Shown here one piece after another: positions 11,680 through 55,701 of a stretch of DNA of 64,000 nt. The first letter of the stretch is position 1; each line of letters opens with the position of its first letter. A program made the position numbers and the translations under genes. Under the pieces are notes generated by a model, which worked only from the letters and a program-made list of their open reading frames with translations, was not told the origin of the DNA and did no database searches. This stretch comes from Antennarius striatus (Eukaryota; Chordata; Actinopteri; Lophiiformes; Antennariidae). The stretch covers positions 3,788,501-3,852,500 of the forward strand of contig NC_090781.1 of the NCBI RefSeq assembly GCF_040054535.1. The letters are read 5' to 3'.

Positions 11680-12440
11680 CTTTTACAGGGAGCCCCAAGC
11701 TTCCCTTTCCCTGACCACATCCACCTGCTCTGACTTGGGGATCCCAAGGCGTTCCCAGGTCAGTGTTGAGATATAATCGCTCCGCCTGGTCCTGGGTCTG
11801 CCCCGAGGTCTTTTCCTGGCTGGATGTGTCAGGAACACCTCCTTATTGAGGCACCCTAGAGGTATCCACACCAGATGCCCAAACCAGCTCAACGGACTCC
11901 TTTCTAGGTGAAGGAGCAGGACTCTACTCTGAGCCTCTCGCTAACAGCAGTGCTTCTCACCCTATCTCTAAGGGAGACACCAGCTATCCGCTGGAGAAAA
12001 CCCATTTCGGCCACGATCTTGTTCGTTTGGTCATGACCCATCGCTCATAACCATAGGTGAGGGTAGGAACAAAGACTGAACAGTAGATGGAGAGCTTCAC
12101 CTCTCTGGCTGAGCTCCCTCTTTGTGACGACAGTGTGATGAAGCAACAACAATACCGCTCCTGCTGCCCCAGTTCTCCGTCCAATCTCACGTTCCAGTGT
12201 TCCTTTACTCGTGAACAAGACCCACAGATTCGTCACTCGGAGAAGGCAATCCACCAGCTTCCTGCTAAGAACCATGGCTTCAGATTTGGAGGTGCTGATC
12301 CTCATCCCCACCGAGTCACATTGGGCTGCAAACCAGTCAAGTGAGTTCTGCAAGTCACAGGCCGATGACGCAAACAGGACCACATCATCTGCAAAAAGCA
12401 GTTTTCTTATACTTAGCTTTCTGTCTACGTACAATAATCA
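11680..12440 (-). mobile_element. LINE reverse transcriptase C-terminal fragment
   Basis: The minus strand carries the catalytic LLFADDVVLFAS motif with GMRISTSKSEAMVLSRK (12045-12434). After frame shifts comes the C-terminal RTE/I-type tail HPARKRPRGRPRTRRSDYIS (11683-11892). Conserved fish LINE blocks are present in order but in different frames, so it is a relic. The 5' part is missing. Confidence 0.8.
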
Positions 12441-14261: not shown

Positions 14262-17200
14262 TTACAGGATTTCATATTTGTCAACAACAAAGGAGGTTTC
14301 TGAAGAAAATTTAACTGGGCTGTCACCGTCGACGTACATCACTTTGGTAACCTGAAGAAGAGAGAACATGTTGGTCACCAGGAACACCTCCATGTCTATT
14401 CAGTCATGGCAGCCATCAAAGATAAATACTGAATAAATGTCAGTAGAATTAGTTATCGCGTATCCAATTACAATTATTCTGCTTTCCATTAAGGCTGCGG
14501 TAATCATGGACCCCTAACATAATACTGGATGTAAACCAGCTGCTCTTGTGTCAGTGTTCCCACCCACCTGGATGTCACAATAGTTGCGCTTGGACACAAA
14601 AGACACGCTGATGGGAAAGAAATCATTGGGTTGTCCAGCAATGCTGAACTCCAGGCTGCCGGTCTTGTTGTTGTCGTCGATGACAGGTAGGCACCACTCC
14701 AGGATGTTTCGCCTGCTGTCGTGTTTGTACTCTCCATCCAGATCACCAATCACAGGCGCTCCCACACCAGACCTGCAGAAGATTCATGGAACAGCCGTGT
14801 CAACACAAGTTACTCCCGTGGGACAAGAATCAATGTACAGCAGTAGCTTGAGATACGAGTTTAATTCATTCCATGATTGAGCTCGTAAGTCAAACAACTC
14901 GTAACTCAAACTACTTTTCCTCACTTAAAAATGACTAAAACCAGCCTTGTAAAAGAAGTCAAACCCCTCTAAATTATGTGGGGAAAAAAAACATGTTTTA
15001 TTAACCAACGTATAATTAATCATATATAACTTACGCAAACAAAGACAAAGTATGAAAAGAAATGCAAAAGTCACTAGAACACGCTAGCTACGTCTTTACT
15101 CCGCAATTCCTGTCTCAGCACAGCTTGTACCTTGGATTTTCGCTCGTACGTTGAACGAAAACACAGTATGGACACAGCGACGGCTCGAATCTAAAAAAAA
15201 ACTTGTATGTCCAGTGGCTCGTATCTCAAGGTACATGAAAATACAGTCAAACACATGGGGTGCCATACAAAGTCTCGCAGCAGATAGCATCCCACGCCAC
15301 AAATCATCTCAGACGTGTAACGATTATTTAACAGCTGTTCAGTGCTTACGGTACTGGGATGCTGATCACCACATCGTTCAGCTCCAGGCTCTCCTCCTGC
15401 AGCTCATATTCAATGTTGACATCACAGCCACTACCACTCTCTGAAGGCCAGCAGTTTACTGTGGGGTGAGTAGTAACGTTATTAGTAACGTTAACAGAAC
15501 ATTAAACTGGCCCAGTTACATCACACGTGCTGGTACCTACTGGTTAGTGGGATGAGGGCTTCGTCTGTGGTCTGTAGCCTCCACTTTAGCACGCCAACAT
15601 CATTGTTTAGAGGGAATGACTTCTCTGGGTTCTTCAGGCCAATCACTGACTCAGCTGTGAACAACTTTTTGTCCACATTGGGATGTGTCTGTGAACAGGT
15701 TTTAGTGCACATTAGGAGGGCCATTCACAACTGCACTGCCATCTAGTGGTCGAATGAAGCAGTGCTAGTGCCACACAAACTAAGAAAATAATGACAATAC
15801 ACTATCAACAACGTCTAAATGACCAGTTTGAACATCAACACTGTAATAAAGGCACATCACACGGCATGAGCATAAATAGAATAAAAATAGTTGATTTAAT
15901 TATTTTAAGCATGATACTTAAAATACTCTAGGAAATGTTTTTTTTCTGTGGTACATGGTTCATCTGTTTAACTTGGTATGAAATCCTCTATTTTAGGTTT
16001 TTACATTGTGTTTTTAACTTTTTTTTACAGAATGTATGCATGTGGAAAGTCTCTTTGAAAGCATACGAAGAATTTCTGAATGATACTGGTGAAACAGAAA
16101 TGATTTTAATCCAAGGAGATTTAGTATCTTCTTATAAAAAAAGTTAATTACATGCAAGAAACATAAGATGATTGGCTATGTGGCTTAAATGTCTTCAGGT
16201 TCGACCTACTTGCAGCTGTAATCCTTTGTTGTCGTTATTGTTGATAATAAGGCGGATGCGGCCGTTCTTTTCATCGCTGACCCGGAGTGTCACCATACCC
16301 AGCACCTCCATGTTCTGGAGGCCGCCGTCACGACCGCAAGTCAGTGAGATCTTCTCCTCTACACGCAGATGGATGCTGGGAAAGTAAATGCATCCACACA
16401 CAATTAATGTGCAGTACTCAACATCTACTGCATACTACACAAGATGTCACCCATAGTTCATAGTTTTGAGACCATACACTCCCCTTTAATGGTTTCTATG
16501 ACACAAATGTGTCGGTAATTATTTTTAGTTTCTGAAATAAACCGTTACAAAGATTTGAAAGGACTCAGGAGGAATCAGGCTGCTCTACTCCTGCATGATC
16601 CATGTATGCGAATGTGGCCCTTTTTAAAGTGAAAAAACAAAGATATTCGGTCATAAAACCAAAGACTTCTCCCTTCATTTAATGCATAACCGCTGCGTGA
16701 ACTTCATATCATTAAAAAATATGAACTCTGGCAGAACAAGTTCATCAGATGATCTGAAATACACCTCAATGCAAGCCATTCCACATAGAGAATGTGTGTT
16801 GTGTTTGACAGTCCATTAAAAACAGTTCATAATTAAATTAAATCAATAAGTTGATTTTTTTAAAATTTCATTTTCCGCACCACTTATTCCGCTCTCACGG
16901 GTCACAGGGGTTGCTGGAGTCTATCCAAGCGGACTTACACGCTTTAGGCAGGGAGACGCTCCGGATACGTTGCCAGCGCATCACGGAGGAGATACTACAG
17001 TGACAGTGTGTAATAAATACTGTCTTTGTGATCATCAATATGGAAATAACAATTTTATAAGCAATTATATGTGTCCCATAGTCTGTCAGCTCTGTCTGCA
17101 GGGCATGAAAAATGTATCACCAAACAGAATGATTTTAAAACTGGACAAATAAACCCACTCACCCAACAGCAGTCAGTGGAAGCATGCTTTGAGGTTCACA

Positions 17201-20200
17201 TCAACCCTATAGTTAAACATTTAATCAGATAAAGCAGGATGTTCATGTACCTCTCCATATTGACTGGTGGCGGTAAAGCTTTAGATACATCTGAGCCCCT
17301 CTTTCCTGTGGTAGGCATTATGGTTTCACCTTCAGACTTGAGCTTGTCAACAAAGTTGTCCACCTCTTTGCCTCTAGCGCCTAGTTTCAGAGCCTTACTG
17401 GGTCCGCTTGGTCTAGGAGGAGAAAAATGAACAGTAGTCTCATAGAGGTGTTTAACATAACGGCAAAAAGATCCTAAATATGTGACATTTGGGTTTCTTG
17501 GAGTCATACCTGACTGGCGCTGGTGTGATCTTGGGCTTTTCAGGCTCCACGATGGTGTCTGTAATGATGGACCCTGAAGATACGCTGGTCATGCCTGCGC
17601 TGCCGAAACCCCCGAAAGCCGGCACCTTTTTTCCAGAGCGTTCTGCATCCCGCCTGGCCTGCTGTAGCTCCTTGGCCTTTCTCCTCATCTCTGCCTTCGC
17701 CTCTCTTTCCTGTGTCTGTAGATTCACACAATTGTCAAGTGGTTACAAATGCTGACATTAACAGAGAAAATCATTTTAGCTGCTGGTTAAACTGTTTTTT
17801 TTCATGCTTTGCACTTGTTCTCATTAGAAGGCTTCTAAAGAAGACTACATTTGTCTTTGGTTCAAGAATTGTTTTGTAGGAAAAAAGGACTTTCCTTTTG
17901 TGAGCAGAAAATAAGTCGCAAAATTAAGCTGACGAGATAATTTTCAATGTCAATAAAAATAAGATACCCCTTTAAAATATCTCAATGGATTAAGAGGATT
18001 CACGAAATCGATGATCCATCCAATTTCTTGTAGAAGAAATGCTTGCAATCGTCTCATCCACATCCACAACCGCTGATCCGCCTTTTCGAGTCGCGGGTCT
18101 ACTGAAGCCCATCCCAGAATTTATAACCAAAAGGCGGGGTAAACCCCAGATGAGGTGCCAGTTCATCGCACAGCCACAAAAAAGACAAATACACGTGCAA
18201 AACTCACACCTACTGAGGGATTTAGTGTTACTGATTCACCTAAGTTGCATGTTTTTGGAGGCAGGAAGAAGCTGGTGATAGAACCCATACAAACAACTCC
18301 ACCCTTAGAATAAATCAAATTGAATTCAAATTACCAGGAATCCATAATAAGCAGAAAATTGTTATACGTGTAGTAATGACCATAGTTTTACGTTTGAACT
18401 TTCCATCTTATAAATCACTTTTCAGACTGATCTTATTAAATATTCTAAAATTCTGAAGCTGTCAGCCATAATTATCAAACATTAAAACAAAAAAAGATTT
18501 GACCTATTACAATGAATGTGATATGAATTACAAACATATAAATGTGTTCCTGTAACACAGAAAATAATGGGAGAAAAATTAACTTTTTCATGAAATTCTA
18601 ATTTTGTGAAATACAATGTAGCCCTACATTGTTTTGCATTTTTAACCAACCATTAAACATTACTGTATTTAACTCAAGTTCTACTCTTGTGCTACTTTTA
18701 ACTACTGTTCATGTCACGTTGTGTCCAGTCTGGTCTATGAACTGGATACAGACAACGTGCTATTGTGGGAAGCTACTTCTCTTTTACAATATAGAGAGTT
18801 CCTTATGTTTTCCTTTCTTTTGAACAAGATCCCACACGCTCATATCTGTGTCACAGCAACAGCAGAAACAAACACTTCAGGAACAAAATAATGTCAAATC
18901 CATTTTCTTTATGTGATGTAATGAATGAATTTTTAGCCCAAAGGATCACAGAAGTGTCATCTCACCTCTCTGACAGCACGGAAAACCTTTTCCTCGTGTG
19001 AATCCATCTCTGTGAATGTGCGGATTTGAGCGAGGTTGACGTTCTCTCTGTAGCCCAGAGCCACAATTTCATCGAAGGCAAAGATCAGGTCAAAGCAGTG
19101 CTCTGATATTTCGCTCTCTTCCAGCACACGACAGTATTCTGGGATCTGGAATGGTAACAAAAAAACATTTCCACAAATTAACCAGCGCACACATTTGGTA
19201 CACATGGCACACTGAAGTGGGTAGACACTGAACTCAAAACAAATCATACACAGATACACGCTCCAAACCTGACTGCTGATCCTATGAACATTTCATTTTC
19301 TTTAGTAGCATTTTCCCAGTAACTTTTGACATATAAATGCAACTTTCATCTATTACTAATGACTCTTTTCGGATAAAGTGATAAAGATGAAAGGCTTGTG
19401 GTTGCGTATATTAGTCCAGATGTAAGTTTAAAAAATATATATCAGCAGTCATTAGATGTACTAAGTAACAGATAACTTATTGTAATCTCGCTAATTATGT
19501 TTTATTTATGCATGATTGTAGGATAAGTCAGAAACAGAAAGTAAAGTCTATTTCCTTGCAAGTTTTATGTACAGTAAGTTTTAGCAGCTCAACAACCAAA
19601 TCCAAGTTGTATGTAAATAAATAGTACTTTTAGAATAAGTAAAATACACAAATTAGAAAATTATTTCGAACATTTTAAAAAAAGATTAATTGCAGTGATG
19701 ACATTTTCCAGACAGCAAAAGGAACAATGAAGGCAGCATGACTTTGTTACATGGCAAAAAATTTTGGCTCTCCAAAAGAGGCAATAAACCTGATTAACTT
19801 GTTAGGTAAGATAGAAACAAAACCGATCAGAGTCCTATCTTTTCCCTCTGATGATTCATTGTGATATCCTGATACAAGTCAGTATTCAGATAACGGTGAG
19901 ACCTCAATGTCAACATGACTGTGGCTCAAACCCACAACTTCCTGTTTTCTCTCGTTCTTAATTTAGTTTTGCCTGTTCTTTTGACAGCCTGGCTGTCATG
20001 CTCCTGCTACATTTGAAATTACATTTTTATTTTTACCAAAGCAGAAAGTATTTGATTCCATATAACGGAAATCCACACTGAAACTCAAACGTAAACTTTC
20101 TTTTAACATGTGCAACAAGATGCTAGAGGCATCATTCTGACAGGTTTCAATGGCAGTAAGTTAGGGATGCTTGAAGCACAAACTGATTACAACTACAGAC

Positions 20201-21570
20201 AGTAATTGCTTACTGACTCCTCTTTTTTTTCCACACTAATGTAACGACAATGGCCACTTTAAAATCACCAAAAAATCATGTGAAATAATTCTGTTTATAT
20301 CTGGACAAAGTCAGCCGTGTGTTTCCTCACCACACGAGAGAAGAGTCTGAGCGTCTCCAAGTCCTCCAGGATGTTGCTGTTCTTGGTCGTGATGAGGACC
20401 ATGTAGAGTTTCTCAAGTGGCTGGTACACATAACGGACACTGTCTGTTTCCACAAAAGTGTGCTGTTTGCCCGTGTTCATCAGTTTGGGGAATGCAGCCA
20501 GGAGACCCTCAATACGTGTCCTGGACATTTCCACAAACTGTCTTGATACGATGGCTTTGCCAGCCTTGGTGCACACCGCCGCTGCCAACAGCACCTGTGG
20601 GTAAAACAAAAACCTGACTGTTAAAGTGAGACTTGTTTTCCCAATCAAGAGGCAACACCTTCAGGCAACAGCGAGTCTCTTTTGACACAAATTCAGCCCT
20701 CAGCTACAGATTTCAACTTATTACAGTGGTTCAAGACACTCTGTTCACTTCCTATGTTGAATTTTGGTTAAAATATACTAGATAAGGTCACATTTAATTT
20801 AAAAAGGATTGCTGCCAAAATGATAAAATATATCCCAGCCTTGACAACTGTGTGAAGGGCTTGAATCCAAGTGTCAGTATGTATGATGAATCCTAATGTC
20901 TAAAAAGATCCCAAACAAGCAGTTACAAAAAGTAAATGTCATCACCCAAATGCTGCTGGGTTGTATTAAATCAACACATACAAACTGCTGGTGTGGTTTC
21001 ATGTGAGAATGCTTATTTGATTCATTGTAAATCAATTCCGGAATGAAGGGACTGCATTTATTCCACGTTGGCAAAAGCAGAGTTCAAGAGATGAAAACAC
21101 TGTTGGCTGAACTTCATGAACCAGCAACAGCTGTGATTAACCCCGACGGTCCAGCAGAACCTTGTCAAGTTGCATCACATAATAAAACACAACGTAATTG
21201 TGTGTAATTCCGATTTAAGTTTTAGAGCCACGTATCCGATGTTGTTTGTCTGGGAACAACATAGCAGGTAACGTTAGCGTTAGCTTGGGTCCGTGCAGCG
21301 ATACATCCAGCTCCATTCGCTTCAGCTACTAAAGCAATTCACGTCGAAGATGTCCAAGTGTCGCCTCACCAGGAATGAACCTCAGTAAACACGGCCACCG
21401 GTAATTTAGTAGGTAAAATAGCTAAAGTTTTCCACCTTGTTGCGTTGCTGAACCACTGGGCTAGCGGGTAGCTAGCTTTAGCAAGTTGCGAGGTTAGCCA
21501 AATGTCATAAATGCTACTAGCTAGGCCCGAAAAGACACAACTGTGCTGATTTTCGACACTCACTCACCAT
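14262..21570 (-). CDS. arcn1: Coatomer subunit delta (archain 1), 10 coding exons
   Basis: Delta subunit of the COPI coat, which drives Golgi-to-ER and intra-Golgi vesicle transport from the cytosolic face of membranes. Coding exons, highest coordinate first: 21570-21568 (start codon only), 20594-20331, 19145-18966, 17715-17510, 17412-17251, 16375-16210, 15688-15541, 15458-15350, 14772-14568, 14351-14262. They sum to 1533 nt, 510 residues plus TAA; the vertebrate protein is about 511. All introns are GT-AG and in phase. The N-terminus ([20 protein letters not shown]) is the longin-like small-coat-subunit domain. A charged helical linker with [20 protein letters not shown] follows, and residues from about 272 form the mu-homology domain ([29 protein letters not shown]-like segments, C-terminal VDKYEIL). 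The start is fixed by ATG followed directly by the GTGAGT donor, with exon 2 beginning VLLAAA. The gene is divergent from hmbs. Identification rests on known conservation of this family and is near certain. Confidence 0.97.
14841..15236. mobile_element. MITE with TTGAGATACGAG ends, in an arcn1 intron
   Basis: CTTGAGATACGAG near 14848 and CTCGTATCTCAAG near 15218 are perfect 13-bp inverted repeats. Secondary repeats GAGCTCGTAAGTCAAACAAC lie inside. A fragment of the same end (ACCTTGAGATACAAGTTGTT) is at 33988. Between arcn1 exons at 14568-14772 and 15350-15458. Confidence 0.75.
16875..16990 (+). repeat. Dispersed repeat fragment
   Basis: CACCACTTATTCCGCTCTCA, GGGTCACAGGGGTTGCTGGA and CGTTGCCAGCGCATCAC form the proximal part of the dispersed repeat family. 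In an arcn1 intron. Confidence 0.6.
18010..18305 (+). repeat. Dispersed vertebrate repeat (GGGTCGCGGGT / CATGTTTTTGGA type)
   Basis: Blocks GAGTCGCGGGTCTACTGAAG, GGTGCCAGTTCATCGCACAG, TGATTCACCTAAGTTGCATG and TTTTTGGAGGCAGGAAG occur in the order typical of a very common fish dispersed repeat. Further fragments lie at 16875-16990, 24480-24545, 41875-42010, 45465-45695 and 50640-50745. Non-coding, in an arcn1 intron. Confidence 0.7.
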
Positions 21571-32248: not shown

Positions 32249-35203
32249 TTAGTGCTGGCCACTGGCAGTGCTGATAGATGGGTTGTATGGTCCAATGACA
32301 CAGAAGACACAGCCGGCCTCTTGGAACGCCTGTCTCATCTCCATCTAGCAGGTCAAACACAGACTGCATCACACTTCTGGGCTTTATTGTCACATAATTA
32401 AATATATTTAAATTTAATGTGGTATATCCAGCCTTAAGGTTTTGCTTTCCCACATTTTTTGTGATTTCTAAGTTTTACTAATATTAAAACATTGTGAATT
32501 CCTTCAAATCAGAAAGGTGACAATTTTAACATGAATATTAAACTCAAAGTCTCAGCTGATTATAGAAATGGACTGTCTGCTGGAGACATTTATTTCTACA
32601 TAATGCAGTCTTACCAGTCTTGCATTATCAAGACACAAACCCACTACGGCACCCCCACTGCCCGGCAACTTCACAGATGAGCCAAACTGCAAGAAGCAGG
32701 AGAAAAAATAAATGCATGAAAACGTAAAAACAACAACAACAACAACAAAACAACACACCACCCTGGTTATAGAATGTTTGGTCACTGACCTGCTTCGCCA
32801 ACTGGACCATCTTGAGATTCCCAGGACCCAAACATTCATCAGTGTAGATGGTCCTATGAAATATATGCTCATTAAACTGTAAATATATCTGCACTATGAT
32901 AAAGTCCCGCCTATATTATATAATTATATCTATTATATACTGTATATACTGTATATAATATATTTTTACATTAATCATTAATAATTATTTTTTAACTATT
33001 AATAATTATATAAAATATATAATTATGATAAAGTCCCGCCTATATTTTATGATTATATATATTATATGCTGTATATATATTACATATATAATTATATAAT
33101 AATTACTAATTAATCATTAGTAATCAATTAATTTTAATTATTTATATAAAATATTATATCAATATTATGTCATTATTATGAAGTCCCGTCTATATTATAT
33201 ACTTAAACATATTATATACTGTATATATATATATAATAATTAATCATTAATTCTCAATTATTATTAATTATATAAAATATTATATAATTATGATAAAGTC
33301 CTGCCTATATTATATAATTATATATATTATATAATTATTATATAACTATAAAAATAGTACCTCCGCAGCTCAAAGTTCTGGTCCATCAGCTGTGCTAGTG
33401 TGCTCCAGTCTCTGGTCTGAATAGCTGCCCTGAACAAAAAAAAAAGCATTTTTAAGATAAAAGGTAATTGAAACTTTTTACATGTCTCAGAATGCCAAAA
33501 GCCAGTTTTGTACCGTTGCTATACACAAATAATATAATGGTTGTTTACATCCAGCCTTTGATCTGATTTCATGGAGAAAACCTCTGAAGTCTGGATCGAC
33601 ATTTCACACAGAGATCACAAACCAACCTGGCTCTGTCAGTCAGCGCAGCAAACGTCTCCATGGCTTCAACAACTGCAGACTCCCCTGTGGAAGAAGAACA
33701 TCACATAGTTCAGAGTTCATCTTGTGCACAGCGATATGCGTTAGTTGTCAAGAGGGAAGGTGCTTTGCGGCTTGCCTGAACAGAATCCAGACTTCTATTG
33801 AAATGAAAAATATCAAGCATCCTGAGCCAGTCGACTACGACCGGCCCCTGAAGTTTTACTGTCCCAATGGACATGACTGAACATCTGAACCAGCTCAAGT
33901 TCACCCCTCATATTCACGAGTTTTATGTGCAGCGGACCGATTTGACCTGAATTACTGCACATCCCCTGGTGTCTCTGTTGGATATACCTTGAGATACAAG
34001 TTGTTGAACTGACTTGTGGGTGAACAAATTCAAATTACTGAATGAAGATTTAGAAAGACTCACACGACAGCAAGCACTTAAAAACAACTCCCCCCAGCAG
34101 ACCGACAGATCGTCAAAACTTGGAAACCGCCTCCTGTCTCACACCAAACGCTGCAGCTTGAGGGTATTACTGTATGGACTGTGTTTGGCTCTACGTATGC
34201 ATGTATGAGGTAAACAGGTACCGCTGAGCCAGCGCTGGCGAACGTTGCTGTGGATCCGTCCAGAGTCACTGGGGTCACTCAGGTAAGCCAGCCAGAATGG
34301 GGGGAGCCCATTCATGTCCATAGACACGTAATTCCCTGAGAACGGTTAAAAACAAAAACAAAAACATGTGTTTTTCTATTAAAAAAAATAAATCCAGAAC
34401 AAAATTTTTGTGTAAATTTTCAGAATGAAGAAATATAAACTGCATCAGAATTCATATAACCATGTAAACATGCTATTCCAAAAAAGTTAAGGTATTACAA
34501 TTGTTATTAGTACCAGCCGTTTAGCAACAACAGATTATGTCTTCAATACCGTATCCCTGATCTTCCATGAGTGTCTTGCTGAAATCCATGAACACTAAAC
34601 CTTCATAGACCTAGAAAGACAAATAGAGTTCATGCTATGAGGCAGCAACTGCATAAAGGCTGCGTTCAGACTGGCAGCCAAAATCTGATTTTTACCCCAA
34701 CCAGATTGATATCGGATGTCTCTTTTGTAGTGTGAATGATCACAAATCACATAAAATCGGATTTATTTATTTATTTTTTTCAAGATGGATTGAAACCACA
34801 TTCAGGAGGTTGCATTTGGACAGATGTGTTTCAGTGTGAACAGCTCCACACACAACCCTAAATATCAGATATGAAAGGGGAATCTGATCGGAAACCCGAT
34901 TTTCCTGCCGTCTGAATGCAGCCAGAAGGTAAATGAAAAAAATGCACCGTTAAATCCACTACTGACCTGCACTACTCTGTCCTGCAGACCAGCGGTGATA
35001 AAAAGCTCGTCAGTCTCCACACTGAGGATGAAGTTGGCTCGAATCGGTTTCGGGAGATCCTGGAGTGTGAAATAGAAATACGAAACATGTGGTACATTTA
35101 GTTATTTCTATATCAATGCTTCTCTTTTTCTTTTTTCTTTTTGGGTTCATTGGAGGAGCTTCCACCACCATTGTGACCTGGATTGATCTAACTTGGAAAA
35201 AAA

Positions 35204-35269
<66 letters not shown>

Positions 35270-38200
35270 ATTATAATTATAATTATTTATATTTTATTAT
35301 TTTATTTTTTTAGCCGTTAACAGTATTATGGGATGTATTTATTCAACTGAGATATTAAGTAGAACATCACTGTGAAATGCCCCGGCCCGCCACTGCTTCA
35401 TACTAAATTCAATATAAAACAAAGTCCACCTGAGTAAACAGAAAGGGTGTTTAACCCCCACACACTACTACTCCACATGTCTGCATCAGGAGATGGACAA
35501 CACCCTTACATTATCTGTGATGTTGTAGAACTTCATCAGACACTTGAGGGTGGCTGAGACGATGGCACTGTGGAAAAGGTACGTTTTGAAGAAGGGTTAG
35601 TGTTTTATATTCAAAGTATCTGTAAATGGGACAATGCTGTAATGAAATAATCAAAAATGACATTTTACCTGCTTCCTGCTAGGCCCTTGTTGGACAAAGA
35701 GACAAATCATTTCACTATTATATGACTCTTTCAGGGCTTTACTTATTAGAAAGCATGAATTCATTTAATGCTCACCACTTGTCGAGGAATGTTGGTGTCA
35801 TACTTCAGTGTGAAGTTCTGCTTTGTTAAAGCAATACTGCAGGTAAAAAACCCAGACAGAAATCCTTCAGAAATTTGTGTATGTTTGCATTTATTTAAGT
35901 TTGAAGTTTATAGATGTGCACGTTGACTACAGAAGCCTTGCCAATGACTTATACGCAAGGATATATAAATATAATGAGAGATTCCATCTAAGATGAGAGA
36001 GGATTGTCCACAATCCGACTGAAACATGTTTGCTTCCGATAAAAAACAAAAGATCAAACAGATAAATAAGTAAACACAACCCATTGCAAGAAATGACAAC
36101 GCTGACACCACATTGTTGAGAAGAGTTTGCTCCTATCAGGACCATATCTTATGTAAGTTACACCCCATTGTCTACAAAGTTTTGTGGAGTTAGCAGAGTC
36201 TTAATTAAGATGTTGAAAAAAAATCAATCTTTAATCTTTAATGTCTTTAATATTTATCTGGATTCATTCTAAAACATAAAAATCCCCACTTTGCTGATCT
36301 ACCATTCTTGAAGATCTGTTGGGTATTTTTTATTGTATGTAATCCTGATAATAAGTAAAAAACAGGTGTTGAAAAGCAAAGTGATTGATATGTGCATGGA
36401 TATCATTGGTGTTCTCTCCGTTACGCGTCTCACCCTTGTTTGGAGCAAAACTGGTAGAACTTCTTACAGGTAGCCTGGAGCAGCCGCAGACCCCCAAGAT
36501 ACCTACAGCGGACGGTGGACGGAGAATTTTCAAATGCTTTACCGAGAAAAATCCTCGTGTATCTACTTCACTGTGTACCCACCCTTCTTTCCTGCTGATG
36601 CAGAACAGATCCTGCAAGCTTCCGAACTCTGTGGGGTCGTTGAGAGGATGAGGCACCAAAACCTGCAGAGGAAACAGGAAGTAACGCGACTCCTGCACAC
36701 GACGTCCACGATGGAGGTTCTGTGGTTTATGGTTGTGAGTAGAAGTGTTAACATGCCCTACCAAAGTCTGGCTCTCTGTTAGCGTGACCTCAGCCCAGAA
36801 GTTAGAGATCGTCATGGCGATGGTTTTCCCATTGAAGCCGTCTGAGGGATTCCCTATTAACCCCACCCTGCGGGTCATCACACACTGGGAAGTGAATTCT
36901 TATTGTCTTCTTTCATTCAAGTACTCTGATCATCAGGGATTCTATTTGAAAGGAAGATAATTCACAGTAAATTAATCCAAACTGGAGTTTGTTTTCTCTT
37001 ACCTGGCGTATGATCGGCACGTGATTGGCTTTGTCGGATTGTCTAGTTGCTTGTTGGAGTAGTGGGTCAGCCACTTGGTGTAGTCTGACAGGCCCTAATG
37101 ACGAGAAAACGTGATGTAGGGTTAGAAAATTAGAACATCATGGAAATACTCGATATTTTTATCCATTATTTCAGAAAACGACATTCTGGTCTCATACATA
37201 TCAAGCATTTCTTTTAGTTTTATAACTACAGCCTGTAGCTTAAATTGTCTCACAAAACTATCACCATGCGTTAACTAATTTTTATTTAATATGAATATAT
37301 ATTTTTATTCTTACTTATTGTACAATGACAGACATGAGAAATGGGAATGAGAGTTAGTGAGTTAGTTATGAGTGGAGTTGTGTCTCTGTTCCAATTTCCT
37401 GTGTACAGAGATAAATAAAGCCTGTGTCCGCGTGTTCCATCTCTACTGCAGTTATAGTTAATACAATATTATTATTACAATATTATGTGCTTTTAACAGT
37501 TTTCTAGTGATTTTAGCAGTCCAATATTTGTGGTTGAGTGAAATGAAGTAAACCTGATTTTATTTGTCCATGTATTGTTTTTCGATGTATAATCGAGAAC
37601 GACTAAACTCAAAAGACTTGTAGCAGGTAAGTCTTAGGGAATAGTACTTTCATATTTAGAGTAGAAATGACTTTTAAATGACGTCAAATGGTGACTATGG
37701 ATTGAAATTTAATAAATAATGATTCACGAACGTTTCATCTTACAAACAACCTATCTGAACCAATCGTGTTTGTAAGTTGAGGACTATCTAAAGAAATATT
37801 CTAATTGACCAAAAGTTTGATGTCCATGAGCTGTAAACCATACTTATCAAAGGTGAGAGCTAAATTTCAAACATCAGAGGGCACGAACTACAAAAGCATT
37901 CATTCATTCATTCATTCATTCATTCAAGGTAACAAAAAGGCTTGAAATATTTCAGTTCATGTATAACAAATCTAAAATACATGAAAGCTTGTTTCACCCT
38001 CCCGGCTTCAAAATGACGTAACAGAGAGGAGAGAGCCACACACTCAACACGCACGCGGAATCATAAAATTTCACTTTATATAAATATCAGGTATTTACTC
38101 ACTTGGAAAATATACCTCATTCCATTCAAATATTCAAATTACTATTACTAACTATAATGCTGTATTGCTGCATGTACGTCTTAATACCATAACTTTATCA

Positions 38201-41169
38201 ATTTTTTGCGTGTCATTATTTCCACAACATTCTCTCATAAACTTTTACTAATTACTTACTAATTAATTTCTTTACAGTCTTTACAGTTTATAGTTGTTAT
38301 TATTATTATTACTATTGTATTTTTCTTATATTTTTTCTTTTTTACAAATCAATTGTACGTTGTTATTTGTATTTGTTTATTATTGATTATTGACCCTAGA
38401 ACTGATTTAGTTGCAAAAGTATTCAATTGTTTAAAGCTGAAGTAAGAGGAACTGCTACTCAGAGTAAAGGGGGAAATAAAAATACAAATTATTTAAGAAA
38501 TATTTCATGAGTATACATTGAATTCCAAGTAATTCAATTTAAAGTTTTTATGCCAATCTTATTTAACTTCAGAGATTTTCTGTGTTTTCAATGGGAAGGG
38601 TAGCTTCCTCCACTGCGCCACGAAATGTCATCAACCACAAAATTTTTGGCTTGGCGATAGCTTTCTCCTGGATCCTGAAGTAACTTTTCAATATCCAATC
38701 TAATCAATAATCATTCTATCAAACAAACAGCAATTCTTGAATCAATGGCAGAGAAAAACTGTATTTAATTAAAATGAAAATCTGATGCTGTACTGTCAGT
38801 GAGACTGAGACGCGTTAAGTTCTCTGCTTTTAGAAAAAATAATTTAATCCTAATTCAACTGTTTTGGTGTTTGGGAACCATTCATTCATTGACTATATAT
38901 AAGATCAACTCACTGCTCCCAAACCACACCTTTCAACATCTGTCCCCCCTCCATATATATATATATATATATAGTCTCTTCTTTCTTGTCAATTGTTATA
39001 AATATCAGGATAATTTTTATTATTCTTTTTTAATCTACCTCGTTTTATGTGTCTTTGACATATGCGGGGGAAAAAACAGAATTTAACAAAATGATTTCAT
39101 TTGTGACTTTGCTGCATCAGTTTTAAAAGTATACCATTTGTCCAATAATGTTGCTTTTCTGAGGTCTAAGTTAATAAAGATCATTTCGTCTTCGGTATAC
39201 ATAATAAATTGGGGATGAAAAAAAAAAGTACAAATTGTAGGAATTAATCTGTCTCCTTTGTAATGTATGAATCTGATGGAAAACTGTAAAACATTGGTCA
39301 TGTGATGTACTGATTTAAGGATACGAACCACTTGTCCAATGAGCTGGAAGCCGGTAGGAAGTTTCATCCCAAACACATCGAGCTGCTTCTCATTAATGAG
39401 CCACTCCTGAGGACAGAAGACAGGAAAAACAGGTTTTTACTTCAGTTCATGATTGTGGATGCGTTTTATATAGATGCAGATCCTAAAGAAGGCAAAGGGT
39501 GCTATTCACACCACAAACAAATTATTGTTAATTTGTGTATAGATAATTTGATATGAATCAAATTAAAGATATGTACTTGTTCAAACAAATGATCAGTTTT
39601 CACAGGAAAGCGATTACAATTCATCTAGCCCATTATACTCACTGGTTTGTCTTGTAATTGTACAAACCTGGGTTTGAATGGCAGTAGTATTAGTAGTAGT
39701 ACTGTGTTTTCCAGAGGAAAATGTTTTATATAACATCTATTACAGAGATCTTTTAAAAATGAAGAGTTTTGTATGATAGATAATCCAAGCAGTAAAACTT
39801 ATTCCTAATGAAATATGGACTTACGAACCCAAAATCGTCCGAAGCTCCTGTCTGCAGCTCTGGGCTGCATCTTGATGAAGTCAGACAGGAAGGACAGACT
39901 GTCTCTCTGGATGCAGTAAAACACCACGCTGGCCAGCCGGGACTGGATCACTCCATCATGTGGTTTCTCCAGGAAGCGACTTATTCTAATTTAGAAACAG
40001 TATATTTAAATCAACTCTGTAATGTAGCAAATAAAAAAATATTTGTCCATTAAGTTCTGGTCCTTTATATGTGTCTTATGAAACTAAAGAAAAACCGTCC
40101 TACCTGTGGGAGTCGGGGCAGACCTCCACGATGCCCCTTGAGCTGCTTTTCTCACTTTCCTCCAGCTCATAGTAAATTATCAGTTCTCCAGGCTGCAAAG
40201 ACCCAAACCGGTGAGTTACGACTAGTTTCCTTTAACTAATCCACAAAAAGATTCATCTGACCTTTCATTTGAACATTTTGCATTTGGCCAAGAAGATAGA
40301 AAACAATCCTTTGACTCCGCGCAACTCAACAAACAATTCAGGTGCCTGCTCTATAGGCAAACATGATTTTTTTTCATTAAAGACATAATTTTTATACATG
40401 CAATGTGGTCATCAAGATACAGATTCAAATGATTTTCATTATCTTGTTGATACCAGGTCAAGAGACCTGGTATCAGCTGAATAAAGCTGTTCTAAAATCT
40501 GCTCACAGATGGTAGAGAATACGTCTGACTATCTTTTTTGGTTGTTATATACCATAAATTCAATATTTAAATCTCAATAAAGAAAACGTCTTTTTTTACG
40601 GTCGCCTTCATTTTTATTGGGAAAATCTGACCTTTGACCTGAAGAAGCGTATCACTTGTGCAATGTCAAAGTTCTGGTCCGCACACAGCATGTCTCCCGC
40701 TATCTGTGTGCACACAGTGATAGGTATCATTGTATGACATTCAGTTCTAAAAAGAACATACCTCTTCAATAAAGTGAAACGTCACATTATTATGCATTTA
40801 GGGGCGGCAGTGGCTCAGTGGTAAAGCGGGCGGTAGAGCGGGTCGTCCTATGATTTAAGATCGGCGGTTCGATTCCCGCTCCCGCCCCCCCAAAAATACC
40901 CGGAGGTGAGCTAACAGTGGGAGGTGTCAGCTCATCTCCGGAGCACTGCCGAGGCACCCTTGAGCAAGGTGCCGTCCCCTTTACAAATTGCTCATTTGAG
41001 GCGCACCAAGAAGGAGCTGCCTGCCACTCTACCTCCCCTGCATGCCTACAGGCCCCTTTGTGTGTGTGTGTGTGATACAGGGGCCTGTACTCACAAATAT
41101 GTATGCATGCGTTTGTAATCAGTAGCTAGAGTGTGCTGTCTTAATTTCCCTTCGGGGATCAAACCAGTA

Positions 41170-41209
<40 letters not shown>

Positions 41210-42503
41210 AACGTACCACCACAATGTCGTCTTGCAGCCGGCGGCTGTGAATGACCAGCTGCAGATCAGCTACAGCCCCCAGACGATCCTCCAGGGTGGT
41301 GCTGCCGTCGTTCACTATGTTCTCCACCGGGAAGTCGTTAGCGGTGGCCCAGCGCTCGAAGTGTTTATACCTGATCCGTTTAGCATCACGACAACGAGTC
41401 AAAGCACAAAAATAGTCTGACTGCAGTCAAACTGTTAGGAGTCGAATCAACTTTGGGGTAACGGAGTTAGTACTGACTTATCTGCATTTGTGACGAGGTA
41501 CACTTCTGTGAACAGTTGTCTCCTGCGGAGGTCACAGATGCAAACAGAAGATAACTGATTTGTTTTGAGGGACTGACGACACCAAGAAAAATCTCTTCTT
41601 TCAATAAGAGAAAGGTCACATTTTGCATGTGTTACGCACGTGTTCACCGTTTCCCACCAAAAGTCAAGAATCTTTTTCCCTCCTATTCCAGGTAGTAAGG
41701 CCTTTGGTACCCCAGTCAGGTGGCTGTACAAGCCGGTGTCATCATACTGGGGGCACAATTCAAAAAGTCGAATTGTAAAAAAACAAACAAACATCAATCA
41801 ACACCCCAACAGGTCAGTGTGACCAAAGGCCTGGATGTTGTAGATTACTTGGTAGTAATTCACCAGACCAGACATGCATGTTTTTGGAGGTGGGGGGGAA
41901 GCCAAAGAACACACTCAGACATGGGGAGAACAAAGTCCACACAGAACAGGACCCACAACCGTCTTGCAGTGAGGCAACAGGGCTGTACTACCTATTGCCC
42001 CACCGTGTCGGCTTTTCTTATGAAAAATATTCTACATTTCTGTGGTTAAAATCTCTATATTTAAAGATAGTCAGAAGCAGAACACTGCAACCCTCAGTTT
42101 ATATATAAATAGTGTCATCTGTTGAAACGGATACGATACAGATCATGAATACAAATAATTCTGGTATGAAAATTGCATATGAAACAAAGTGGGAGCAATT
42201 TGTGCACAATGAATACATTTCCATTGAAGGTGACAATATCTTATCTTAGCTGAGGTGATTTAATTTATTTAAAAGTTTATCAAAATCACCCACTGATTAT
42301 TTGGTAAGTTTGTAAGTTTAAGTTAAGTTTGTGAATAAAATGCTGGTGAACAGGTAACAGGCTGTAGGAATGTAGGTCAACGACTTGTGAGGCGAACTTC
42401 TCGTCGCTGTTATTTCCTAAAACTCCCGCGTCAGCCTTGACCTCACCTTGATCTGCGTCTCCAGGACGGTTCCGTGTCCCGCTACCAGCACTATGCAGAT
42501 CAT
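32249..42503 (-). CDS. gkup: Bifunctional sugar nucleotidyltransferase / glucuronokinase fusion, 23 coding exons
   Basis: Exons, highest first: 42503-42447, 41746-41640, 41522-41478, 41370-41217, 40703-40632, 40192-40104, 39985-39829, 39406-39329, 37094-37003, 36867-36762, 36662-36583, 36502-36434, 35836-35776, 35685-35669, 35567-35510, 35059-34967, 34610-34550, 34335-34222, 33684-33627, 33429-33361, 32853-32790, 32686-32615, 32344-32249. Sum 1869 nt, 622 residues, phases consistent. Residues 1 to about 253 form a nucleotidyltransferase: LVAGHGT loop, DDTG and LTGVPKALLP, then AGDML with the metal-binding aspartate (Asp125). Residues from about 254 form a GHMP kinase: RVGLIGNPSDGFNGKT, then PRQVGLAGSSAIV (phosphate loop, 386-398), then KLPGSGGAVVG (573-583). 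The kinase half resembles plant glucuronokinase. The inferred role is salvage of free glucuronate to glucuronate 1-phosphate and then UDP-glucuronate. The 42503 start is the first ATG but follows CTTTAG, so an upstream exon is possible. The donor at 39329 could be three bases off. Confidence 0.88.
32890..33330. repeat. AT-rich diverged tandem repeat, about 4 units, gkup intron
   Basis: The phrase TATGATAAAGTCCCGCCTAT recurs with small changes at about 32897, 33027, 33177 and 33290, each followed by ATTATATAATTATAT-like sequence. The unit is about 110-150 bp, almost entirely A/T except for the GTCCCGCC core. Between gkup exons at 32853 and 33361. Confidence 0.8.
34658..34923. mobile_element. 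MITE with GGCTGCRTTCAGAC ends, in a gkup intron
   Basis: GGCTGCGTTCAGAC (34658-34671) and GTCTGAATGCAGCC (34910-34923) are inverted repeats with one mismatch in 14. The interior is rich in ATCTGATT/AATCGGAT phrases. A shortened relative, CGTTCAGACTGCAGGCATAT, is at 48072. No clear target duplication. Confidence 0.75.
35198..35266 (+). repeat. Compound (A)n(TA)n tract, gkup intron
   Basis: About 23 A followed by about 22 TA units and then TAATTATAATTATAATTA. Antisense to gkup it is a TA run followed by poly-U. Confidence 0.95.
37095..39328 (-). other. gkup: Longest gkup intron (2.2 kb)
   Basis: AT-rich intron at the junction of the nucleotidyltransferase and kinase halves. It holds an ATTC run and a short TA run (38955-38972) but no recognisable exon. 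Confidence 0.6.
37899..37926 (+). repeat. (ATTC)n microsatellite, gkup intron
   Basis: Seven ATTC units. Confidence 0.95.
40801..41206 (+). mobile_element. tRNA-derived SINE with poly-A tail
   Basis: A box TGGCTCAGTGG at 40811-40821 and B box GGTTCGATTCC at 40866-40876 form the tRNA-like head. The body includes GCCGAGGCACCCTTGAGCAA and ends TTAATTTCCCTTCGGGGATC before a long A tract (about 41172-41206). The first part is partly duplicated (GGTAAAGCGGGCGGTAGAGC). It lies in gkup intron 4 in antisense orientation, with its A tail about ten bases from the exon 4 donor. Confidence 0.88.
41870..42010 (+). repeat. Dispersed repeat fragment (CATGTTTTTGGA type)
   Basis: GCATGTTTTTGGAGGTGGGG, ACATGGGGAGAACAAAGTCC and CTATTGCCCCACCGTG match the distal half of the dispersed repeat at 18010. 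Lies in gkup intron 1. Confidence 0.7.
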
Positions 42504-42667: not shown

Positions 42668-44286
42668 CACTGCACAGCAATATTGAGTACACCCCCCCCC
42701 CCACTGAAAAAAGAAGTTTTTCACAGTATTAAAATGAACACAAACAATATATCCCAAACACTTCCTCGATGATGTTTATTGCATTCAGTTCTTACATAAC
42801 AACTCAAACAGAAAGGTGAAACTGAAATGACTCTTATTCTGTTTCCGTGAAAGTGTGGTGGAGCCAAAATGAGTACACCCCACAGCAAACACGACTACAT
42901 CCAATACATTTAGTACTTTGTTTGGCCTCCATTACTTGCAATGACAGCCCCAACTCTCCTTGGCATGGAGCGCACAAGGCGACAACATTTGGCCACGTCA
43001 GTCTTTCTCCATTCCTCCAGGATGACCTCTTGTAGAGCCTGGATGTTGGAAGGAGAGTGATGCTCAACCTGCCTCTTCAGTATTCCCCAAAGATGCTCTA
43101 CAGGGTTCAGATCAGGTGACATACTTGGCCGTGGAATCACTCTTACCCTGTTCCTCTTCAGAAAGTCAGCAGTGGCCTTAGATGTGTGTTTTGGGTCGTT
43201 GTCGTGTTGAAAACCAACGGCCCGAAGTGATGGAAGCATGTTAGCCTTCAGTATTGACCAGTACATTTGAGAATTCATGATGCCATCAATGAAATGCAGT
43301 TCTCCAACACCCGCAGCACTCATGCAACCCCACATAAGAACACTACCCCCTCCATGTTTCAGTGGGCACCATGCACTTTTCCTTGTACTCCTCACCCTTG
43401 CAACGCCAGACCGTTTTGAAGCCATCAGTTCCAAAAAGATTGGTCTCTTTACTCCAGAGTAGAGTCCCAGTTGCCTTCATCCTCCTCAGCATGGGCCCTG
43501 CAAACTCGAGGCGTTTTTTTTGTGACTTGGCTTTAGGAGAGGCTTCCTTCGGGGACGACACCCATGCATGTCATTCCACTGCACTGTATGGCACATTGTG
43601 TCACGTGATAGTCACTCCAATTTCAGCCTCTACCTCCTTAGCCTTAGTTGTGCACTTGCATTTTCCTAAACTTTTCTCATCACAAGACGCTCCTGCCTGG
43701 GTGCTAATTTTCTTGGCCGGCCTGTACGTCACTGTACTTTGGTTGCAGTTCCATCTGTCTTGAATCTTTGGATCACTTTTGGGACCGTGTTCTTACTAAT
43801 AAGTCAGGCTTTACTGATCTTCTTGTAGCCCTCACCTCTCTTATGTAAGGCAATAATCCGCTTTCTCAGATCCAGAGACATTTCCTTGCCATGTGGTGCC
43901 ATTGCTGACAGCAGGAAATGGGAGAGGGCGGTTTGCTTCAGGTAACAGCCTTTTGTAGCCAACTGACTGATGAACACAGTGTAATGAGTATCTAGACTCA
44001 CCTGTAGTTAATGGTTTGTTCAGGTCCACATTGGGAGCCTAAAAGGTTGCTTTACTCAGAGACCTTCAGTGGGGTGTACTCATTTCTACGCCACACTAAT
44101 TTTACTAAAACGGAAAAGAAAAAACCTGAAGTTATATTATTAACCTTAGTTTTAAGTTCAAAAGCTCAACAGATCCTGTGTTTAACTTAGTCTGTGAACA
44201 TTTTGGAAATATATTTTTGTATTCCTTGACATATTGTATGAAATGTTACTTTTCAAAGAGGGTGTACTCATTATTGCTGTGCACTG
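42668..44286 (-). mobile_element. Tc1-type DNA transposon, 1619 bp, with TA flanks
   Basis: The left end CACTGCACAGCAATATTGAG matches the inverted right end (GAGTACACC preceded by CACAGCAATAAT) with two mismatches over 26 bases. TA dinucleotides at 42666-42667 and 44287-44288 give the target duplication expected of Tc1/mariner. The length is typical of Tc1. It encodes a decayed transposase on the minus strand. It sits between the 5' end of gkup and the 3' end of usf1. Confidence 0.93.
42910..44001 (-). pseudogene. Tc1 transposase, broken
   Basis: The N-terminal piece (43804-44001) has the HTH region, with SLDLRKRIIALHKRGEGYKKI. A middle piece (43343-43561) includes LLWSKETNLFGTDG. The C-terminal piece (42910-43434) holds GCMSAAGVGELHFIDG, QHDNDPKHTSK (second catalytic Asp region) and SPDLNPVEHLWG (third acidic residue), ending with a typical Tc1 tail. 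The pieces lie in different frames, with no open frame over 43562-43803, so no complete transposase can be made. Confidence 0.9.
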
Positions 44287-54228: not shown

Positions 54229-55306
54229 CAGAATCAGAATCAGAATCAGTTTTATTTGCCTTTGTTTGTTGAAAAACAGACAAGGAATTTGTTTTTGGCA
54301 GGTGGTGTCTCAAACTGGACATTCATACATTAAATTTAGCTATGCTAAATACTTTAAATACTATAAATAACTATACTAAATACAAAACACAAGACGCAAA
54401 ACGCAGTAGGTGGACACAATGTACAAGTGCTGAGTGCATATGTAAACAGGTTGCAAAGACTGGAGACAAATAATTTAACAATTGCATTTTAAGTGTCTGA
54501 TAGCTTGGGGGAAGAAACTGTTCTTTAATCTGGTGGTTTTTGAGAGGAGGGCTCTGTAGCGCCTCCCAGAGGGTAGACTTTTAAATACTCAGTGTCCAGG
54601 GTTTGTTGGGTCTGAGATGATCTTCCCTGCCCGACTCCAAACTCTTGAGGAGTACAGCTTTTGAGTGGCAGCACCTAACCAGACTGTGATGGAGGAACAC
54701 AGAACCGATTCAATGACTGCCGTGTAGAACAGGACCAACAGTTCCTGTGGCAGACCGTGCTTCCTCAGCTGCCTGAGAAAGTACATCCTCTGCTGGGCCT
54801 TTTTGAGGATGCAGATCATGTGGAGAGTCCACTTCAGGTCCCGGGAAACAGTAGTCCCAAGGAACTTGAAGCTCTCCACCGAGTCCACAGGGCTGTCTGC
54901 GATGGTGAGGGGGAGTAGAGGGAAGGGTAACTTCCTAAAGTCCACTGTCATCTCCACAGTCTTGAGTGTGTTCAGCTCCAGGTTGTTACGACTACACCAG
55001 TCCACCAGCTGTCTCACCTCCTGTCGGTATGCAGACTCATCCCCGTCCTGGATGAGTCCAATGACAGTTGCGTCATCTGCAAACTTCAGGAGTTTGACGG
55101 CTGGGTGCGAAGATGTGCAGTCGTTGGTGTAGAGGGAGAAGAGCAGCGGAGAGAGGACGCAACCCTGGAGGACACCGGTGCTGACTGTCCGAGTGTCTAC
55201 GGTGATCGCCCCCAGCCTCACCTGCTGTGTCCTGTCTGTCAGGAAGCTGGTGATCCACTGACACATGACAGAGGGGACTGTGAGCTGGTGAAGTTTGAAG
55301 GAGAGC
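54229..55306 (-). mobile_element. LINE (L2-like) inserted in the satellite array, 5' truncated
   Basis: The minus strand encodes 225 open residues (54589-55266) with TGVLQGCVLSPLLFSLYTND and KLLKFADDATVIGL (reverse transcriptase motifs, FADD catalytic site), LKTVEMTVDFRK and FKFLGTTVSRDLKW. The 3' UTR ends in three GAATCA-type repeats at 54229-54250, the tail microsatellite. The 5' side stops abruptly at about 55306, where satellite sequence resumes (GAGCAGTTCTGCAGTGCACA). The open frame suggests a fairly young insertion. Confidence 0.85.
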
Positions 55307-55701
55307 AGTTCTGCAGTGCACAGCTGTTAAAAGTGAGGTTAAGTACATTAAGCAACTTAAATTGTGAGACTCATCTAAACTAACTAGCAGGCCACAGATA
55401 ATTCAAACTGACACAAGTGACAGTCAAATATGGAAATGGTACATGTGGATGCGGCTATCTGATAAACGTCTGACACTATTGTAGTGATTTTTTTTCAAAA
55501 TTCACCACATTACAAAATACATTTAGAATTTTGAACAACACCCTGTGGAAAATTGAGTAACAGCAACACAGGTTATTTGTTTTTGTGTTTCAAACAGAAC
55601 ACTAAACAGCATTGACTGTTTAATGTTTCAATTTCTTTCACCATATTTATGCAGCTCTGCTCAACGTCATAAGAGCATGTCGTATTTAAAAAAAAATATG
55701 G

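Follow-up and report, generated by a model that had tools for sequence, protein, structure and literature searches.

The gkup-type locus described here lies on the minus strand of a 64,000-nucleotide stretch of the Antennarius striatus genome (contig NC_090781.1, positions 3,788,501 to 3,852,500; hereafter the window, in whose coordinates all positions are given) and encodes a predicted protein of 622 amino acids. Our analysis suggests, with a probability of about two in three, that this teleost protein combines a glucuronokinase with a crippled or regulatory bacterial-type uridylyltransferase domain, in which the signature arginine is missing, as very probably is the metal-site aspartate of the second position. 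The fusion gene is already known, having been published in 2014 as gkup when the zebrafish ortholog, DrGKUP, was cloned by Gangl, Behmuller and Tenhaken (PMC3938481); a novel fusion was therefore rejected as an interpretation. The point added by the sequence is a specific, testable reason, suggested by two residue replacements, for the near-inactivity of the pyrophosphorylase half in published assays.

According to the available parts of the 2014 paper, DrGKUP has 619 residues, in which a putative pyrophosphorylase at the N-terminus is followed by a glucuronokinase at the C-terminus, whose substrates are specifically glucuronate (Km 31 uM) and adenosine triphosphate (ATP); ATP-dependent phosphorylation of glucuronate is in print for both zebrafish and Xenopus. 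The second step was invisible in standard assays and in yeast, a trace of uridine diphosphate (UDP)-glucuronate being seen after a 70-h reaction. Five conserved residues are listed by the authors, who sought damaged ones and stated that the catalytic centre could not be identified from the structures (PMC3938481). In European seabass, a 2025 paper, in the portion available, treats gkup as a conserved single-copy gene across teleosts (PMC12487334). The A. striatus gene resembles that of zebrafish in the pair of domains and their order, in length (within 3 residues) and in being single-copy, the comparison being made on these features and not on residue identity. All 17 matches to the 622-residue protein in the genome (548 Mb, 42 contigs) fell inside the one locus; a second copy was rejected, as no match lay elsewhere in this search, which scored the best candidates only. 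An earlier note on this DNA, made from the letters alone, had proposed the fusion, the glucuronokinase identity and a doubt about the pyrophosphorylase; it was right in each, all three being already in print for the zebrafish ortholog in the accessible text (PMC3938481).

The locus was rebuilt from the genomic sequence, from which the splice sites were inferred. The start codon is at 42503 and the stop codon ends at 32249; the spliced reading frame has 1869 nucleotides including the stop, the phases join, and GT and AG ends are found at 22/22 introns, in agreement with the previously noted 23 in-phase exons coding for one fused protein. Weak donors occur at exons 7 and 8 (gttcgt) and at exon 17 (gtattg); 4 nucleotides downstream of the site chosen for exon 7 is gtaagt, a stronger donor whose use breaks the frame. 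The exons carry all the motifs named earlier (GHGTV, PKALLP, AGDM and the three GHMP motifs), as follows.

Exon 1, 42447..42503 (-): residues 1-19, start codon; GHGTV loop, residues 9-13 (42465-42479), with Val13 at the catalytic arginine position
Exon 2, 41640..41746 (-): PKALLP including Lys34 (41690-41707)
Exon 3, 41478..41522 (-): rebuilt gene model
Exon 4, 41217..41370 (-): rebuilt gene model
Exon 5, 40632..40703 (-): AGDM including metal-site Asp125 (40689-40700)
Exon 6, 40104..40192 (-): rebuilt gene model
Exon 7, 39829..39985 (-): Glu181-Lys182-Pro183 (39961-39969)
Exon 8, 39329..39406 (-): the nucleotidyltransferase half ends here; FQLIGQV at 39329-39349, where Leu249 aligns with the second metal-site aspartate
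Exon 9, 37003..37094 (-): linker joining the two halves
Exon 10, 36762..36867 (-): GHMP motif 1, GNPSDGFNGKT (36822-36854)
Exon 11, 36583..36662 (-): rebuilt gene model
Exon 12, 36434..36502 (-): rebuilt gene model
Exon 13, 35776..35836 (-): beginning of GHMP motif 2
Exon 14, 35669..35685 (-): microexon of 17 nucleotides within GHMP motif 2
Exon 15, 35510..35567 (-): end of GHMP motif 2, which reads PRQVGLAGSSAI across exons 13-15
Exon 16, 34967..35059 (-): GLQDRV (34973-34990) including Asp441
Exon 17, 34550..34610 (-): rebuilt gene model
Exon 18, 34222..34335 (-): rebuilt gene model
Exon 19, 33627..33684 (-): rebuilt gene model
Exon 20, 33361..33429 (-): rebuilt gene model
Exon 21, 32790..32853 (-): rebuilt gene model
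Exon 22, 32615..32686 (-): GHMP motif 3, LPGSGGAVVG (32639-32668)
Exon 23, 32249..32344 (-): C-terminus and stop codon

A stop-free run of 622 codons has a probability of ~4e-18 at the base composition of the window, a figure that is overstated because the exons were picked for openness; the domain content is the better proof of a real gene. The protein search proposed earlier for the 622-residue model returned from Pfam the NTP_transferase model and both GHMP kinase models, all three above cut-off, as expected for the nucleotidyltransferase domain and full GHMP kinase that had been noted. PF00483 (NTP_transferase) matches residues 32-220 (E 3.7e-10, 40.2 bits against a cut-off of 21.2), starting downstream of the GxGT loop; PF00288 (GHMP_kinases_N) matches residues 368-448 (E 1.1e-7) and PF08544 (GHMP_kinases_C) residues 523-601 (E 5.6e-7). 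With these two models and all three motifs, the C-terminal half belongs to the GHMP superfamily. Its kinase motifs are intact as judged by comparison with 80 bacterial homologs, in 80/80 of which NPSDG, GSGG and Asp441 are invariant. In phmmer searches of the PDB, the whole protein had one match, a heptose kinase, on the kinase half, and the N-terminal half alone had none below E 0.1.

The N-terminal half was aligned with 20 relatives (from 18 plasmid records and two viral contigs) and with E. coli RfbA, i.e., 21 proteins; the highest identity to the 20 relatives is 29.9% and the median 26.5%. In the global MAFFT alignment Val13 stands where all 21 aligned proteins have the GxGTR arginine, and the same column holds arginine in 72/73 of the GalU-type proteins encoded beside bacterial kinase genes, with one gap; HMMER and HHalign also place Val13 at the arginine. 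The earlier remark that the GHGTV loop lacks the signature arginine is thus confirmed against relatives. The second metal-site aspartate, that of the D-x-G motif, is present in 20/21 aligned proteins (one gap, in a truncated frame) and in 73/73 GalU-type proteins, and is replaced in this global alignment by Leu249. Gly9, Thr12, the PK lysine (Lys34), the first metal-site aspartate (Asp125) and the EKP motif (Glu181-Lys182-Pro183) are retained, and about 11 residues are inserted ahead of Lys34. In our alignment, two of the five positions listed in the 2014 paper (E. coli numbering) are kept, Asp118 and Lys163; the other three align with Ala8 (Gly11), Ala104 (position 91, which is Gln in the K-12 protein) and Leu243 (Arg220).

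Loss of the arginine is damaging in related enzymes, as far as the accessible parts of the respective papers tell. The R21A mutant of Klebsiella UGP (KpUGP) keeps 4.59% activity (PMC11796359); the T20M/R21H replacement lowers the activity of E. coli GalU ~500-fold, and the M15T/H16R replacement in GalF raises it 10-fold (PMC4643126). In plant VTC1, Asp111 and Asp219 are stated to be catalytically critical (PMC9168903), and Asp219 would, by our own reading, be the aspartate of the D-x-G motif. The replacement of the arginine and the aspartate by Val13 and Leu249 may explain the near-inactive pyrophosphorylase half in published assays. One parallel is E. coli GalF, a low-activity paralog of GalU, annotated as such, with 0.004% of GalU activity (PMC11796359). 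Like the fish domain, it is a nucleotidyltransferase with the signature arginine replaced (by histidine); unlike the fish protein with its Leu249, it keeps the second aspartate in our alignment. Another parallel is GMPPA, the catalytically inactive subunit of GMPPA-GMPPB (PMC9168903). Both GalF and GMPPA are separate polypeptides, whereas the fish domain is fused to the kinase that produces its presumed substrate.

In the mechanism that we propose, the C-terminal half would phosphorylate free glucuronate with ATP, as is in print for the zebrafish ortholog in the part of the paper available (PMC3938481). The N-terminal half would keep the fold and the substrate-contact residues Lys34, Asp125 and Glu181-Lys182, without the signature arginine (Val13) and, very probably, without the second metal-site aspartate (Leu249). 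As a uridylyltransferase it would be very slow at most; a binding or regulatory role is more likely, comparable to that of GalF toward GalU and of GMPPA toward GMPPB. If UDP-glucuronate is made in quantity, the step would probably be completed by another pyrophosphorylase or a partner protein. The previously proposed channelling of glucuronate to UDP-glucuronate within one protein is weakly supported, given the trace product reported after 70 h and the replacement of two shared residues; the accompanying suggestion of a UDP-glucose dehydrogenase (UGDH) bypass is possible.

The pairing of a glucuronokinase-like gene with an adjacent nucleotidyltransferase gene is widespread among the bacteria sampled. 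The bacterial kinases are 37-48% identical to the fish kinase half, and in 71/80 loci the kinase gene has a nucleotidyltransferase gene on the same strand within 400 bp (53 upstream, 18 downstream); two further neighbours are 412 and 830 bp away. In 785 kb of bacterial kinase loci, the nucleotidyltransferase profile matched no other frame at E 1e-6. Nine neighbours were sampled with NCBIfam: both downstream neighbours scored above the galU cut-off and all seven upstream ones below it. These gene pairs support a coupled pathway, though the partner is not of the fish type. The fish N-terminal half was rejected as an ortholog of the bacterial neighbours, blastp against 73 of them giving one match (E 3.7e-4), and by this comparison the domain fused in the animal belongs to another branch. 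A pair such as that of Rufibacter tibetensis, on whose plasmid the kinase gene is followed by one annotated galU, resembles the fish protein in a homologous kinase with a predicted nucleotidyltransferase neighbour; it differs in having two genes and a GalU-like neighbour with arginine and aspartate present, and is known here from sequence alone. No description of a bacterial salvage operon of glucuronokinase and a galU-type gene turned up among the open PMC papers listed by the searches made. It is possible, though less likely than not, that animal gkup carries a pseudoenzyme in its N-terminal half, a sensor of glucuronate-1-phosphate or UDP-sugars through which the fused kinase is controlled. 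The route by which these animals are held to salvage glucuronate into UDP-glucuronate would then be without the presumed second enzyme, and bacteria would instead keep the kinase together with an intact GalU-like uridylyltransferase, as a small operon.

Pairs of kinase and nucleotidyltransferase genes, in an order that varies by locus, were seen in contigs titled Chloroflexota, Planctomycetota, Acidobacteria, Balneolaceae, Bacteroidales/Chitinophagaceae and Verrucomicrobia. On a Lactococcus garvieae plasmid a nucleotidyltransferase frame (L004:6001-6663) within a polysaccharide gene cluster ends early and is unannotated; it is probably a decayed gene.

Several points weigh against a crippled N-terminal half. 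The placement of Leu249 comes from the global MAFFT alignment only, because both the HMMER and the HHalign alignments end at residue 241-242, and a five-sequence alignment shifts the insertion and pairs the arginine with Gly24 instead of Val13, with no arginine either way. The retention counts that speak for a crippled half, 38/40 columns invariant among the 80 bacterial homologs for the fish kinase half (65/75 at 95% conservation) and 19/31 columns invariant among its 20 relatives for the N-terminal half (26/44 at 95%), come from reference sets unlike in size and diversity; 3 of the 12 columns lost from the N-terminal half are at residue ≥279, beyond the domain. Arg220, Leu243 in the fish protein, is listed as conserved in zebrafish in the part of the paper available (PMC3938481), and the arginine and aspartate losses, as seen in one animal protein, cannot be called general. 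Leishmania UGP, of another enzyme family, works without this arginine (PMC4643126); for the second aspartate, mutant data were not seen in the available sources, where the VTC1 statement is the only one to bear on it (PMC9168903).

Moreover, some UDP-glucuronate was detected in 2014, solely with both domains present (PMC3938481). This trace activity, the long stop-free conservation and the bacterial kinases adjoining nucleotidyltransferase genes in 71/80 loci, which make a coupled pathway plausible, speak for a fully working UDP-glucuronate pyrophosphorylase that in the animal needs a modification, metal or partner absent from the published assays. We consider this unlikely, as two residues common to the aligned relatives are replaced and as the second activity was not improved by trying eight nucleotides, many cations or stabilisers, or by expressing the protein in yeast, according to the same source (PMC3938481). 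Activity on a different sugar phosphate or nucleotide would agree with the nearest relatives, which are mostly annotated as nucleoside diphosphate (NDP)-sugar synthases, lie in varied gene contexts and are not of the GalU type; it is less probable still, the lost arginine being common to the thymidylyltransferase RfbA and the aligned uridylyltransferase-like proteins, and different nucleoside triphosphates given alone not being hydrolysed by DrGKUP in the assays described in the accessible text (PMC3938481). Finally, two adjacent genes might have been joined by the choice of exons, as the halves are separated by intron 8, which is 2.2 kb long and has the weak donor gttcgt, and as in Latimeria and Strongylocentrotus the domains are seemingly separate transcripts (PMC3938481). 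This we regard as very improbable indeed: exons 8 and 9 are in phase, and the resulting 622 residues compare with 619 for the cloned zebrafish frame (PMC3938481).

The preferred interpretation, a glucuronokinase fused to a crippled or regulatory domain, bears on how animals may supply UDP-glucuronate, from which hyaluronan and proteoglycans are made. In zebrafish, ugdh mutants retain some glycosaminoglycan, for which the fusion enzyme has been proposed as the reason (PMC3938481), and a paper on human UGDH deficiency, as far as available, considers that feeding glucuronate might help, provided that humans have such a route. The reach of this argument depends on whether the fused pyrophosphorylase works; a few point mutants at Val13 and Leu249 could test this, and the bacterial pairs provide an enzyme for comparison in which both residues are present. 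Plant UDP-sugar pyrophosphorylase is of the UDPGP type, a family without a match in the fish protein (PF01704, the UDP-sugar pyrophosphorylase/UGP2 family, gave none in the 622 residues up to E 0.001). The fucokinase/GDP-fucose pyrophosphorylase FKP of Bacteroides fragilis uses fucose and guanosine triphosphate, and its pyrophosphorylase half is of a family other than that of the fish N-terminal half. FKP was compared as a kinase-pyrophosphorylase system (PDB 9iit, 5yys); with plant glucuronokinase and UDP-sugar pyrophosphorylase the two reactions are identical, and the difference is that the plant proteins are separate, according to the available text (PMC3938481).

The rest of the route is represented in the same fish genome, which has matches to the MIOX family and to the N-terminal domain of UDP-glucose dehydrogenase (UGDH-type), as well as four clusters of UDPGP-family matches, on contigs C7, C8, C11 and C15, whose scores point to UGP2 and UAP1 types; the enzymes of any of these genes could in principle use glucuronate-1-phosphate. 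Scanning a collection of genome contigs with the N-terminal half alone gave 40 pattern matches, none of them a relative. Viral contigs yielded one 26% match to the whole protein and the two nucleotidyltransferase relatives included in the 20-relative set; phages gave no match, nor did the E. coli genomes to one exon of 106 bases.

Within the gene, intron 4 holds at 40800-41210 a stretch that by eye resembles a tRNA-derived short interspersed nuclear element (GGCTCAGTGG...GGTTCGATTCCCGCTCC), with a long run of A after it. Pfam named four of ten neighbouring frames of the window. A DDE_3-type transposase frame (E 2.2e-10), presumably Tc1-like, occupies 42913-43476 (-), ~0.4 kb upstream of the gkup start codon, and reverse-transcriptase fragments (RVT_1) lie at 54592-55326 and 12048-12437, both (-), the second below cut-off. 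Exon-like frames at 14517-20660 (-), one matching Adap_comp_sub and the others tested without a Pfam match, are what we take to be the delta subunit of coatomer.

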